From: Agrobacterium tumefaciens
Lineage (GTDB): Bacteria; Pseudomonadota; Alphaproteobacteria; Rhizobiales; Rhizobiaceae
Length of the DNA: 64,000 nt
Reading direction: 5' to 3'
Assembly: GCA_025559845.1 (NCBI GenBank)
Contig: CP048471.1
Location: 62,001-126,000 of the forward strand
Each line of letters starts with the position of its first letter. The stretch's first letter is position 1. Positions 31,339-45,702 of the stretch are shown here, in pieces. The notes below the pieces were generated by a model, which was not told where the DNA came from, ran no database searches, and saw nothing but the letters and a program-made list of their open reading frames with translations. Position numbers and translations under genes: made by a program.

Positions 31339-31362
31339 ATATCTTATAACTTATAAGTTAGG
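31339..31362. promoter_or_regulatory. Perfect palindrome upstream of the transketolase operon, predicted GntR operator
   Basis: TAACTTATAAGTTA at 31347-31360 is its own reverse complement; it is preceded by ATATCTTATA. It lies 21 bp before the GTG start at 31382, where a bound repressor would block transcription. The same 14-mer occurs at 40365-40378 upstream of the second operon. Assignment to the GntR protein at 39549-40226 is inference. Confidence 0.75.
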
Positions 31363-31381
31363 GAACAACGGGAGCATATCC

Positions 31382-32278
31382 GTGACAGCGTTAAATATAT
31401 ATGACGGCCATCCACCGATGGGCCGAGACGGTGATCCATTGTCTGAAGCCAAGGTGGAGCTTTTGCGCGAACGCGCCCAGTTCGTCCGGCTCGAGACGAT
31501 TCGGCTGATCTCCATCGCCAAGGTTGGTCACTACACATCGGTGTTTTCTTGCGCCGAGATATTCGCGGCGCTCTACTATGACGTGATGAACATCAAAAAG
31601 GGCGAGCCCGCCTGGCCGGATCGTGACCGGTTCCTGATGGGGAAGGGTCATGCCGCTGTCGGATTGTTCCCTATCCTCGCCGACCTCGGCTTCTTCGATC
31701 CGAGCTGGCTGGACACCTATACCCGTCTTGGAAGCCCCCTTGGCGATCACCCTGACATGACGAAGGTGCCGGGCGTGGACTTCAGTTCCGGTTCGATCGG
31801 TCATGCCCTCTCAAACGGCGTCGGAATGCTTCTCGGCGCGCGCTTCCAGAAGCGGGACTTCAACGCGTTCGTGTTGCTCGGAGACGGGGAAATGCAGGAG
31901 GGACAGGTCTGGGAGGCGGCGCTTTCCGCTTCCAGTCACGGCCTCTCCAACCTCGTCGCTATCGTCGACCGAAACGGTTACCAGCTCGATGGCAAAGTTG
32001 ACGATGTCCTCGCCGTGGAGCCGCTGGACGAGAAGTGGCGGGCTTTTGGATGGCAGGTCCACACCGTCGACGGGCACGACGTCCATGCCCTCACGACGCT
32101 TCTCCGGCAGGTGAAGGCGGACACCGGGCGCACCAGGCCCTGCTGCATAATTGCGCAGACGGTGAAGGGCAAGGGCATCGATTACATGGAGACCGAGCCC
32201 GGTTGGCACCTCGGGTATCTCGGCGCGGAAGACGAAGACAACGCCCGCGAAACCATTCTCAAGACGGTGATTTCATAA
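31382..32278 (+). CDS. Transketolase, N-terminal (TPP-binding) subunit
   Basis: A 298-residue subunit of a two-part transketolase-like enzyme, which moves two-carbon ketol units between sugars using thiamine diphosphate. The TPP/Mg motif is LLGDGEMQEGQVWEAALSAS followed by IVDRNGYQLDG, and GKGHAAVGLFP and SSGSIGHALSNGVGMLLGAR are also characteristic. The start is GTG at 31382 after GGGAG; an upstream frame to 31265 would include the operator. The partner subunit begins at 32278, overlapping by one base. Split enzymes of this size include apulose-4-phosphate transketolase (AptA/AptB), so a non-pentose-phosphate substrate is plausible. Confidence 0.92.
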   Translation: MTALNIYDGHPPMGRDGDPLSEAKVELLRERAQFVRLETIRLISIAKVGHYTSVFSCAEIFAALYYDVMNIKKGEPAWPDRDRFLMGKGHAAVGLFPILADLGFFDPSWLDTYTRLGSPLGDHPDMTKVPGVDFSSGSIGHALSNGVGMLLGARFQKRDFNAFVLLGDGEMQEGQVWEAALSASSHGLSNLVAIVDRNGYQLDGKVDDVLAVEPLDEKWRAFGWQVHTVDGHDVHALTTLLRQVKADTGRTRPCCIIAQTVKGKGIDYMETEPGWHLGYLGAEDEDNARETILKTVIS

Positions 32279-33264
32279 TGAACCAGCTGATTTCCAAGGA
32301 CTCGTGGCAATACCGCGAAGTGAACCGCCGCGCGCCGTCGCTGCCGACGCTGTCGAACGCGCTGATCGAGCTGGCAGAAGCCGGCCATCCGGTCATGGCC
32401 GGAACAGCCGACCTCCAGTACTCGAATGGCCTCAACGAATTCGCCAGGCGTTTTCCCGAGAGGTTCGTGCAGTTCGGCATCTCCGAGCAGAACATGGTCT
32501 CGGCAGCCGCCGGCATGGCGACGACCGGAGTCATTCCCTACGTGGCCACGTTCGCCTCGTTCCTGGCTCTTCTCTGCTGCGAGCAAATCCGGATGGACGT
32601 CGCCTACTGCAAGCAGCCTGTCCGTCTCATCGGTCACCACACAGGCATCTCGCTTGGGTTCTACGGCACGTCCCATCACGCGACCGAAGACATCGCGATT
32701 ACCAGGACCATCGCCAATCTCGCTGTCGTTTCCACGGCGGATGGACCCGCACTGGCGGCCGCCCTGAAGGCGACGGTCGATTACCCTCTTCCGATTTACT
32801 TCCGCATCCACCGCGGTCACGATCCTGTCGTGTACGAAAACGGCGTGGACTTCCAGCTCGGGAAGGCCGTGGTTCACGGGGTCGGCGACGACGTCACCAT
32901 TATCGCCGCGGGCTACCCGGTCCACGGTGCGAAAAAGGCGATGGAGGAGCTCAGCGCAGCCGGTCATTCCGTGGGCCTGATCGACATGCACTCGATCAAG
33001 CCTCTGGACGAGGAAGCCATCATAGAGGCATCGGCGCGCTCGAAAATCATCCTCACTGTCGAAGAACACAACATCCTCGGCGGTCTGGGTGGCGCTGTTG
33101 CCGAGGTTCTCGCAGAGAAGGGGAAAGGGGCCCGCCTCGTACGTCACGGCATCCGGGACGAGTACAGCCTGATCGCTCCGCCCACGCACCTCTACAGGCA
33201 CTACCGCCTCGACGCCGACGGGATCCGCGCGGTGGTTCTCGAAAACATCGGGGGAGCGGCTTGA
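32278..33264 (+). CDS. Transketolase, C-terminal (pyrimidine-binding) subunit
   Basis: A 328-residue partner of the preceding subunit. It carries the pyrimidine-binding domain with the catalytic glutamate in FGISEQNMVSAAAGMATTGV and the loop GHHTGISLGFYGTSHHATED, then the transketolase C-terminal domain (VTIIAAGYPVHGAKKAMEEL and TVEEHNILGGLGGAVAEVLA). Its ATG overlaps the stop of the N-subunit by one base (TAATG) and its own stop overlaps the next start (TGATG), so the three genes are translated as a tightly coupled unit. Confidence 0.93.
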   Translation: MNQLISKDSWQYREVNRRAPSLPTLSNALIELAEAGHPVMAGTADLQYSNGLNEFARRFPERFVQFGISEQNMVSAAAGMATTGVIPYVATFASFLALLCCEQIRMDVAYCKQPVRLIGHHTGISLGFYGTSHHATEDIAITRTIANLAVVSTADGPALAAALKATVDYPLPIYFRIHRGHDPVVYENGVDFQLGKAVVHGVGDDVTIIAAGYPVHGAKKAMEELSAAGHSVGLIDMHSIKPLDEEAIIEASARSKIILTVEEHNILGGLGGAVAEVLAEKGKGARLVRHGIRDEYSLIAPPTHLYRHYRLDADGIRAVVLENIGGAA

Positions 33265-44328: not shown

Positions 44329-44345
44329 TCTCAGGACAATCAACC

Positions 44346-44675
44346 ATGACCATTTTTCGAGACCTCGGGCTTCGGGAGCCCGAACTGCTGCGTGACCGCG
44401 CCTTCGTGGCGGGAACATGGGTCGAATCCCCCTCCGATGGGCGCATCACAGTGAGCGATCCATTCGACGGTAGCGAGATCGCTGACCTGCCGAGCCTCGG
44501 GCAGGCCCTCGAGGCGGGTATGGTGGGCGTCAACACGGGCCTAATCGGTAGCGAGGCAGCCCCTTTCGGCGGCGTCAAGCAATCGGGGCTCGGGCGGGAA
44601 GGCTCCAGGTACGGCATCTCCGAGTACCTCGAGATCAAGTACGTGTGCTTGGCAGGGATCGGACCGGCGGCTTGA
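44346..44675 (+). pseudogene. Succinate-semialdehyde dehydrogenase (GabD-like) with the middle deleted in frame
   Basis: The 109-residue frame joins the two ends of an aldehyde dehydrogenase. Residues 1-52 (LRDRAFVAGTWVESPSDGRI, then SDPFDGSEIADLPSLG) are the N-terminus of GabD-type succinate-semialdehyde dehydrogenases. Residues 53-109 (ALEAGMVGVNTGLIGSEAAP, FGGVKQSGLGREGSRYGISE) are their last 55 residues. About 375 residues, with the NAD site, catalytic Glu and Cys, are missing, yet the frame is kept and the spacing to neighbours (17 bp and 1 bp) is operon-like. It cannot be a dehydrogenase. It is either a recent deletion or a retained oligomerisation fragment. Confidence 0.88.
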
Positions 44676-44676
44676 G

Positions 44677-45702
44677 ATGAAAGCGGTGTATTCGGAAGCT
44701 CATCGGGCCCATGTCGCGGGCGACGTGGTCGAGAACGGCGTCCTGCGCGCCAGCCGCGACGTTTCCGAACGCCTGGACGCGCTCCTCCGAGCTGCGGAGC
44801 GAGCAGGTTGCCATATCGTGGAGGCGTCCGATCATGGGCTTGATCCAATCTCCGCCGTCCATTCGGACGCTTATCTGGAGTTCCTTTCTACCGCCTTTAG
44901 CGAGTGGAAAAACAGCGGTTTACCTGGACGGGTGTTTCCCTCGATATTCCCGGCGGGAAGCGCGACCTACCGAGCTGACTGGTCCGTTGTCGCAAAGGCC
45001 GGATTTCATCTGCGGGACCAGATCACTCCGGTGGGCGAGGGTACGTGGCATGCCGCTTATTGGGCAGCTCAGACCGCCGTCACTGCAGCGCATCTGCTGA
45101 TGGAGGGCGAGCGCCGGGTCTACGCGCTTTGCCGTCCATCGGGTCATCACGCCGGACGAGATTATGGAGGAGGCGCAACATACTTGAACAACGCCGCGAT
45201 TGCCGCGCGGCGACTTGCCTCGGGGGGAAAGCGCATTGCAATCGTCGATCTGGATGTCCACCATGGCAACGGAACGCAGGACATATTCTGGCACGAGGCG
45301 GGTGTCTTTTTCGCGTCTATTCACCGAAGCCCTGCTAATTATTTCCCTCACTTCACGGGTTTTCGTGGAGAAGTAGGTGGTATCTCTTCCGAGGGGTCGA
45401 ACCTGAATTATTCCTTGGAAGCGGAGGCGGGCGACACGGAGTATCTTGAAGGTGTCAAACACATCCTGGCTGCAGCACTCCAACACGACCCTGCGGCTGT
45501 GGTCGTTTCGCTCGGTTTTGACGCGCTGGCGAGCGATCCGGCGAGGGGGCTGTCCGTAACCACAGCTGCTTTCGAAGAGATAGGTAGGCGGCTCGCAGCT
45601 GTCTCTCTTCCTGTCCTGTTGGTGCAGGAGGGCGGCTACGACCTGACAAGTCTGCAGCACGTCGCTGCTCGCTTTCTGGACGGGCTTTGTTCACCTCATT
45701 AG
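44677..45702 (+). CDS. Acetylpolyamine amidohydrolase (histone-deacetylase superfamily)
   Basis: A 341-residue zinc hydrolase that removes acetyl groups from N-acetylated polyamines; the length equals that of the Mycoplana enzyme. Active-site parts are all present: tandem His157-His158 in RPSGHHAGRDYGGGATYLNN, zinc ligands Asp193 and His195 in IVDLDVHHGNGTQDIF, Asp282 in SLGFDALASDPARG and the transition-state Tyr321 in QEGGYDLTSLQ. The substrate-tunnel insert YRADWSVVAKAG is that of polyamine enzymes rather than histone deacetylases. Last gene of the second operon. Confidence 0.93.
   Translation: MKAVYSEAHRAHVAGDVVENGVLRASRDVSERLDALLRAAERAGCHIVEASDHGLDPISAVHSDAYLEFLSTAFSEWKNSGLPGRVFPSIFPAGSATYRADWSVVAKAGFHLRDQITPVGEGTWHAAYWAAQTAVTAAHLLMEGERRVYALCRPSGHHAGRDYGGGATYLNNAAIAARRLASGGKRIAIVDLDVHHGNGTQDIFWHEAGVFFASIHRSPANYFPHFTGFRGEVGGISSEGSNLNYSLEAEAGDTEYLEGVKHILAAALQHDPAAVVVSLGFDALASDPARGLSVTTAAFEEIGRRLAAVSLPVLLVQEGGYDLTSLQHVAARFLDGLCSPH

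Follow-up and report, generated by a model that had tools for sequence, protein, structure and literature searches.

A candidate GntR-controlled gene set of Agrobacterium tumefaciens with a divergent two-subunit transketolase and a predicted role in breakdown of amino-polyol amides

Genes and operator sites of the locus

A 64,000-nucleotide stretch of Agrobacterium tumefaciens (contig CP048471.1 of assembly GCA_025559845.1, positions 62,001 to 126,000; here called the window) contains a gene set organized as two operons, with a gntR regulatory gene on the opposite strand (Table 1). Operon 1 consists of tkN-tkC-AT1-SBP1-SBP2-potB-potC-SDR and operon 2 of AT2, an amidase gene, potA, a remnant of a succinate-semialdehyde dehydrogenase (SSADH) gene and a deacetylase gene. 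An original prediction, made from the sequence of this stretch, had proposed that both operons belong to one GntR regulon for the import and breakdown of an acylated amine. The analysis described here pointed to such a regulon and to a substrate that may be an amide or lactam of an amino-polyol.

Table 1. Features of the locus, numbered from the first nucleotide of the window
Feature	Position	Strand	Remarks
Operator block, operon 1	31338..31361	+	TATATCTTATAACTTATAAGTTAG; holds perfect odd palindrome CTTATAACTTATAAG at 31343-31357; 24/24 columns identical in 6 strains
tkN, transketolase N-terminal (thiamine diphosphate) subunit	31382..32278	+	Pfam Transketolase_N; nearest solved chain 6yak (N-terminal component of split transketolase)
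tkC, transketolase C-terminal subunit	32278..33264	+	Pfam Transket_pyr and Transketolase_C; nearest solved chain 6yaj; GFY where TktA has GED
AT1, class III aminotransferase, glutamate-1-semialdehyde aminomutase branch	33264..34565	+	PRK00062, 377 bits (cut-off 398); hemL, 361 bits (cut-off 527)
SBP1, PotD-like binding protein	34600..35631	+	Pfam SBP_bac_8; nearest solved chains, GABA-sensor, unnamed, polyamine and agropine proteins
SBP2, second PotD-like binding protein	35628..36689	+	Pfam SBP_bac_8
potB/potH-like permease	36674..37960	+	NCBIfam PotH, below cut-off
potC-like permease	37964..38764	+	NCBIfam PotC, below cut-off
SDR-family dehydrogenase	38781..39530	+	NCBIfam SDR models; in 12/12 aminotransferase-bearing clusters, window included
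gntR regulator	39549..40226	-	Pfam GntR and FCD
Weaker operator-like site before gntR	40283..40297		CTTATATCTTATACC, 3 mismatches to 15-mer; CTTATATCTTAT identical in 6 strains, flanks differ
Operator, operon 2	40361..40382	+	Two overlapping 15-mer registers, 1 mismatch each; includes second 14-mer (40365-40378); 17/18 columns (40364-40381) identical in 6 strains
AT2, class III omega-transaminase	40408..41772	+	PRK06105, 632 bits (cut-off 517); nearest solved chains 5ghf, 6g4b
Amidase-signature hydrolase	41776..43218	+	NCBIfam amidase models; nearest solved chain 3a2p, 6-aminohexanoate-cyclic-dimer hydrolase
potA-like ABC ATPase	43246..44328	+	TIGR01187 potA, above cut-off
SSADH gene remnant, 109 aa, middle lost	44346..44675	+	Matches residues 1-52 and 410-493 of intact 493-aa H13-3 protein
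Histone-deacetylase-type amidohydrolase, acetylpolyamine amidohydrolase-like	44677..45702	+	Pfam Hist_deacetyl; nearest solved chains, acetylpolyamine amidohydrolases

Identical perfect palindromes had been described 21 to 29 bp before the GTG starts of the two operons. The 14-mer TAACTTATAAGTTA was confirmed at 31347-31360 and 40365-40378, with gaps of 21 and 29 bp to the GTG codons at 31382 and 40408, respectively. An exact search of the 6,305,832-base genome detected no other place, leaving only these two in 6.3 Mb (reversed-pattern control, 0), and matches with up to 3 mismatches numbered 4 in the window versus 0.21 expected from shuffled sequences. The 12/13 match reported before gntR was also real (31338-31350, TATATCTTATAAC, compared to 40285-40297, TATATCTTATACC). 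When the odd palindrome CTTATAAnTTATAAG was searched for without mismatches, the operon 1 site was the only place in the genome. The 15-mer ATAACTTATAAGTTA had one further genomic place at ≤2 mismatches (C4:129272-129287), besides registers overlapping the first site. At ≤3 mismatches there were 10 forward and 11 reverse matches, fewer than the 25 and 25 of the reversed control, and hence nothing pointed to additional genomic sites. A wider regulon in this strain was rejected, as no third genomic place had 0 or 1 mismatch. By-eye reading of the promoters (TTGCCT-16-TATCTT and TTGCCA-16-TATAAG) placed the -10 boxes within the operators, which would mean repression by occlusion; the CTTATAAnTTATAAG sites probably cover the -10 regions of operons 1 and 2.

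Conservation of the operator and distribution of the gene set

Conservation was examined in an ungapped alignment of six strains, namely, the window, Agrobacterium H13-3, S. meliloti Rm41, R. gei, Shinella HZN7 and genome G290. The operon 1 operator had 24/24 identical columns, compared to 12/80 upstream and 5/30 downstream, and the operon 2 operator had 17/18, compared to 11/90 upstream; an ungapped alignment may understate the similarity of flanks, and the strains represent fewer than six independent lines, as H13-3 is very similar to the window and Shinella is very similar to G290. The 14-mer was not quite the conserved unit. At the operon 2 site of Shinella HZN7 and G290, the 14-mer was broken while CTTATAAnTTATAA(G/A) was kept, which suggests that the odd palindrome CTTATAAnTTATAAG is a better unit for the operator. 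M. huakuii and Azospirillum each have two perfect copies of this palindrome, and the sites before their gntR genes are weaker (2 and 3 mismatches).

The regulator has an N-terminal GntR DNA-binding domain and a C-terminal FCD domain, both above the Pfam cut-off. Apart from the window, 7 strains combined the operator with a close orthologue of this GntR (60-99% identity), and the operator was not seen where GntR was 42-46% identical. Among the four other aminotransferase-bearing clusters, those of Variovorax, Phaeobacter porticola and Tritonibacter had no operator match and that of P. inhibens had one unremarkable match (3 mismatches), and 0/13 clusters with the transketolase family but no aminotransferase match had the operator at ≤3 mismatches. 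In P. porticola, where GntR was 46% identical and the motif was gone, another perfect palindrome, TATAATATATTATA, preceded two units, as would be expected if operator and regulator change together. These comparisons give good support to the GntR/FCD regulator as the protein predicted to act at the CTTATAAnTTATAAG sites of operons 1 and 2 and at a weaker one before gntR itself. The proposal that both operons belong to a single GntR regulon was supported by this footprinting across strains and by gene content that was conserved in two orders; the regulon is probably autoregulated, and we regard it as very likely to be real.

For the distribution of the gene set, plasmid records were examined that matched AT1 (6 of 7, all except H7) or tkN (24 of 32, all except H14, H15, H18, H19, H25, H28, H36 and H37), and some records belong to both groups; L094, a second assembly of strain Rm41, was excluded from counts, and absence of a gene from a cluster refers to absence of a match within the examined stretch (9-39 kb). 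Counterparts of all 13 intact genes from tkN to the deacetylase gene (61-99% identity at the protein level) were present in genome G290 and on plasmids of four strains, namely, Agrobacterium H13-3, S. meliloti Rm41, R. gei and Shinella HZN7. The flanks of the cluster were as in the window for H13-3 and partly for R. gei and were different in Rm41 and Shinella. As the flanks differ in the latter two while the gene set stays, the set behaves as a module. The window flanks (28471-31186 and 45922-48886) carry SDR, wrbA, LLM-type monooxygenase, SDR and AraC-type genes. Azospirillum oryzae had 12 of the 13 genes (no deacetylase match) in another order and orientation, with 54-71% identity and operators before two units, and the persistence of the set in this rearranged order is good evidence for a joint function. 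A mobile, inducible catabolic set would be the best explanation of the regulon.

AT1 was rare. Three of 297 genomes sampled from the family matched at E 1e-100 and 4/397 from the order at E 1e-110, both counts including the genome itself; the other three in the order sample were 45-47% identical. At E 1e-130, the class (1/385) and phylum (1/398) samples yielded only the genome itself, and in a contig search with AT1 the best segments were 34-48% identical among the best 80 loci. Relatives of AT1 with 65-69% identity occur in Pseudomonas. The transketolase family occurred in two kinds of cluster: 12 with aminotransferases, including the window, and 13 without a match to any of four aminotransferase queries (L099, L100, L101, L102, L103, L105, L108, L109, L110, L111, L113, L114 and L116). 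Several of the latter carry SSADH, L-idonate-dehydrogenase-like, shikimate-dehydrogenase-like, glycerol-dehydrogenase-like and mandelate-racemase-like genes, and possibly serve a 5-ketogluconate-type route. On plasmid p1 of Phaeobacter inhibens S4Sm (L112), the cluster was reduced to AT2, tkN, tkC, gntR, SDR and part of an aminotransferase gene, with transposase genes on the flanks.

A third unit was found under the same operator in R. gei, S. meliloti Rm41 and M. huakuii. In these strains, the operator (1, 1 and 0 mismatches, respectively) preceded genes for a TorT-type binding protein, a sugar-type ABC ATPase and two permeases, followed by hyuA-hyuB; the unit in Rm41, whose record is unannotated, was identified by sequence match. 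In R. gei, the second permease gene contains or adjoins an IS630 element. The caprolactamase models CapA (542.8 bits) and CapB (273.6 bits) were the best matches of the M. huakuii HyuA and HyuB proteins, below the cut-offs of 1000. The unit was not found in the examined stretches of the window, H13-3, Shinella, G290 and Azospirillum, and the best HyuA match in the genome of the window was 33% identical. In some relatives, the regulon thus appears to extend to an importer of the sugar type and a hydrolase of the lactam type. This unit is the strongest hint of a substrate in which an amide or lactam may be joined to a sugar-like part, and it supports the amide-type substrate with a sugar-like skeleton that had been suggested for the locus.

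Enzymes encoded by the gene set

The original gene list was right overall, including the broken SSADH gene, but there are two PotD-type binding proteins and the transketolase is not a broken gene. tkN and tkC encode two intact subunits of a natural two-subunit enzyme, over which the thiamine diphosphate, pyrimidine and C-terminal transketolase domains are spread (Pfam), as in the solved split enzyme 6yaj/6yak of Carboxydothermus hydrogenoformans, whose subunits are the nearest solved relatives (PMC7661550). That enzyme is from a thermophile, and the account available states that mesophilic bacteria seem to have full-length transketolases only (PMC7661550).

The transketolases of the window and 24 further loci (n = 25) were aligned with Escherichia coli TktA. 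The GED motif of TktA was GFY in 25/25 family members, with Phe-Tyr at E468-D469, and the R91 position was Thr in 25/25, followed by Arg or Lys; these hallmarks of a transketolase acting on ordinary sugar phosphates were hence lacking throughout the family, whereas the C. hydrogenoformans and human enzymes retain GED. The active-site residues S385, H461, H473 and R520 were retained in 25/25. No Arg was present at the R358 position in 25/25, with an uncertain register (Ser/Ala by MAFFT; Leu/Phe by the register of the human alignment), and the C. hydrogenoformans residue was also non-Arg in the MAFFT register. As far as the published accounts available go, the D469T variant of TktA has lost a salt bridge to R91, and the substitution was one of the steps by which the enzyme was taken from phosphorylated aldehydes to aliphatic and aromatic ones (PMC5073344), and the R358I/H461S/R520Q variant has raised activity on 5-keto-gluconate (PMC12016104). 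Retention of H461 and R520 in the window family does not fit the latter variant. The presence of GFY for GED in 25/25 argues for an unusual, probably non-phosphorylated substrate, to which this transketolase family looks adapted, and these residues lend support to the C2 transfer that had been proposed. Tartaric semialdehyde was set aside as the exact product here; with Tyr at the D469 position, a less hydroxylated aldehyde would be likelier.

AT1 falls in the glutamate-1-semialdehyde aminomutase branch and below the HemL equivalog cut-off (Table 1). Roseobacters have a distant relative (35% identity). In M. huakuii, only AT1 fragments with stop codons were detected between tkC and gntR (L104:10868-11254), and a class IV aminotransferase gene adjoins SDR; the Variovorax class IV aminotransferase is 61% identical to this one. 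The occurrence of two unrelated folds in the AT1 slot argues for a transamination that the pathway needs. In genome G089 (L088, 455-4524), a relative of AT1 (66% identity) lies near gntR, class II aldolase and 3-oxo-tetronate kinase genes (398 bits; cut-off, 350), an arrangement which suggests a transaminase feeding a tetronate pathway. 3-Oxo-tetronate is HOCH2-CO-CH(OH)-COOH, and the product of the G089 enzyme may therefore bear the ketol unit needed by the transketolase. The nearest solved chains of AT2 are class III transaminases, one of which, 6g4b, we take to be a caprolactam-pathway enzyme.

The deacetylase-type protein contains GHH, DLDVHHG and FDALASDP, presumably the metal-site motifs of the histone-deacetylase fold family. 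The potA-like ATPase scored 384.7 against a cut-off of 355.6 with the subfamily model TIGR01187 and was below the cut-off of the E. coli PotA equivalog. The SSADH gene was full length in Agrobacterium H13-3 and S. meliloti Rm41 and had another kind of truncation in R. gei; the examined loci of Shinella, G290 and Azospirillum gave no match. Intact SSADH genes occurred in both kinds of cluster. The window has only the 109-aa remnant in place of a full-length gene, and a paralogue without stops (62% identity) is present elsewhere in its genome.

Proposed pathway and alternatives

On balance, we slightly favor a GntR-repressed regulon that would import an amide or lactam of an amino-polyol, hydrolyze it, remove nitrogen by two transaminases and cleave the resulting ketol to a semialdehyde by means of the transketolase. 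We infer the following substrate and order of steps. A PotFGHI-type transporter would import an amide or lactam of an amino-polyol or of a hydroxylated omega-amino acid, and release of the amine would fall to the amidase and the deacetylase-like protein, with the caprolactamase-like HyuAB as the alternative in some relatives. AT2 would take off the terminal amine and the SDR would adjust the alcohol; AT1 would convert HOCH2-CH(NH2)-CH(OH)-R to the ketol HOCH2-CO-CH(OH)-R. The two-subunit transketolase would then move a C2 unit to a central aldehyde, releasing R-CHO, a non-phosphorylated semialdehyde for oxidation by SSADH, an enzyme which the paralogue would supply here. The AT1-transketolase-SSADH order, considered by itself, is somewhat less likely than not, and an iminosugar-type lactam as the actual substrate is improbable.

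A fuller and rather unlikely version is an undescribed route for the breakdown of amides of amino-polyols, which may be hydroxylated lactams of the iminosugar type. A 2-amino-1,3-diol acid would arise by ring opening, a HemL-branch transaminase (class IV in some species) would form an unphosphorylated ketol, and the GFY two-subunit transketolase would split off C2, so that SSADH would receive a semialdehyde; sister pathways fed by dehydrogenases instead of transaminases would use enzymes of this transketolase family as well. Among the papers listed by searches of the openly licensed PubMed Central (PMC) literature, none was seen to describe this gene combination. Chloramphenicol-like substrates and calystegine in S. 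meliloti Rm41 were set aside, as searches gave nothing useful.

Several observations weigh against the favored pathway. The strict promoter scan scored no promoter at either operator, the -35/-10 assignment having been made by eye. The core is not invariant, since no matches to AT2, the amidase or potA were present in the Variovorax stretch and none to the amidase, a PotD-type binding protein or an intact potA in the M. huakuii stretch. Furthermore, several clusters have no SSADH, and all of the enzymes named belong to reversible or broad families.

An alternative that we consider unlikely is a real but mosaic regulon in which operon 2 scavenges amides of gamma-aminobutyric acid (GABA) or other omega-amino acids and the transketolase belongs to a separate sugar-acid route, with no common substrate. 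The 13 clusters with the same transketolase and no aminotransferase match would agree with this, but 12 genes stay together in two gene orders under one operator. Catabolism of N-acetylpolyamines, in which the deacetylase would free putrescine or spermidine, AT2 would make the aminoaldehyde and SSADH would end the route at succinate, with the transketolase and AT1 as side genes, appears a little less likely again. The Pot-type transporter genes and the similarity of the deacetylase to acetylpolyamine amidohydrolases point that way. Against it, the deacetylase gene was not found in the examined clusters of Azospirillum, P. porticola, Tritonibacter and M. huakuii, and an enzyme in the AT1 slot was present in 12/12 aminotransferase-bearing clusters (tkN and tkC were in every cluster as the search bait). 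SBP1 is also not specifically near polyamine proteins: a GABA-sensor protein and an unnamed binding protein led its solved matches, followed at comparable distances by those for polyamines and agropine. A specifically acetylated polyamine was consequently not sustained as the substrate.

We give little credence to a biosynthetic set in which the transketolase would build a ketol from an aldehyde for amination by AT1, as in azasugar-type synthesis. In the account available, bacterial clusters for azasugar synthesis combine genes for three enzymes, an aminotransferase, a dehydrogenase and a phosphatase (PMC8382821), but the window cluster has no phosphatase, and the importer, two amide hydrolases, SSADH and the caprolactamase-like hydrolase of relatives under the same operator fit breakdown. 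That the palindrome is real and belongs to a regulator other than this GntR is scarcely credible, since the site tracks the GntR orthologues.

The favored breakdown pathway resembles parts of known systems. The caprolactam pathway of Pseudomonas jessenii (CapAB, omega-transaminase and 6-oxohexanoate dehydrogenase; PMC6061476) has in common with it amide opening, omega-transamination and semialdehyde oxidation; the HyuAB proteins of three relatives match the CapA/CapB models best, and AT2 is near 6g4b. It differs in that no transketolase, AT1 or GntR is listed in the available account of that pathway (PMC6061476), the HyuAB proteins are below the caprolactamase cut-offs and the window regulon has an amidase and neither CapAB nor HyuAB. 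The action of transketolase and succinate-semialdehyde dehydrogenase on 5-keto-D-gluconate, a proposed tartaric acid route (PMC7970118, PMC12016104), is similar in that a ketol acid is cut to a semialdehyde for an SSADH-type enzyme. As far as these accounts go, that route uses an ordinary or engineered TktA and a ketol from a dehydrogenase, whereas here a divergent two-subunit family would act on a ketol proposed to come from a transaminase. The agropine/mannopine binding proteins (6hly, 5l9g) are of the PotD-like family of SBP1, but none of the genes in the cluster was recognized as an opine gene.

The analysis supplies an operator of defined sequence, a core of 12 genes and predictions at the level of single residues for an uncharacterized pathway of rhizobia, Agrobacterium and Azospirillum; roseobacters and Variovorax carry related clusters. 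The transketolase family is natural and seemingly built for unusual, probably unphosphorylated substrates of a kind that others have engineered into E. coli TktA. Identification of the substrate would reveal a nutrient common to soil and marine bacteria and would give an inducible switch.

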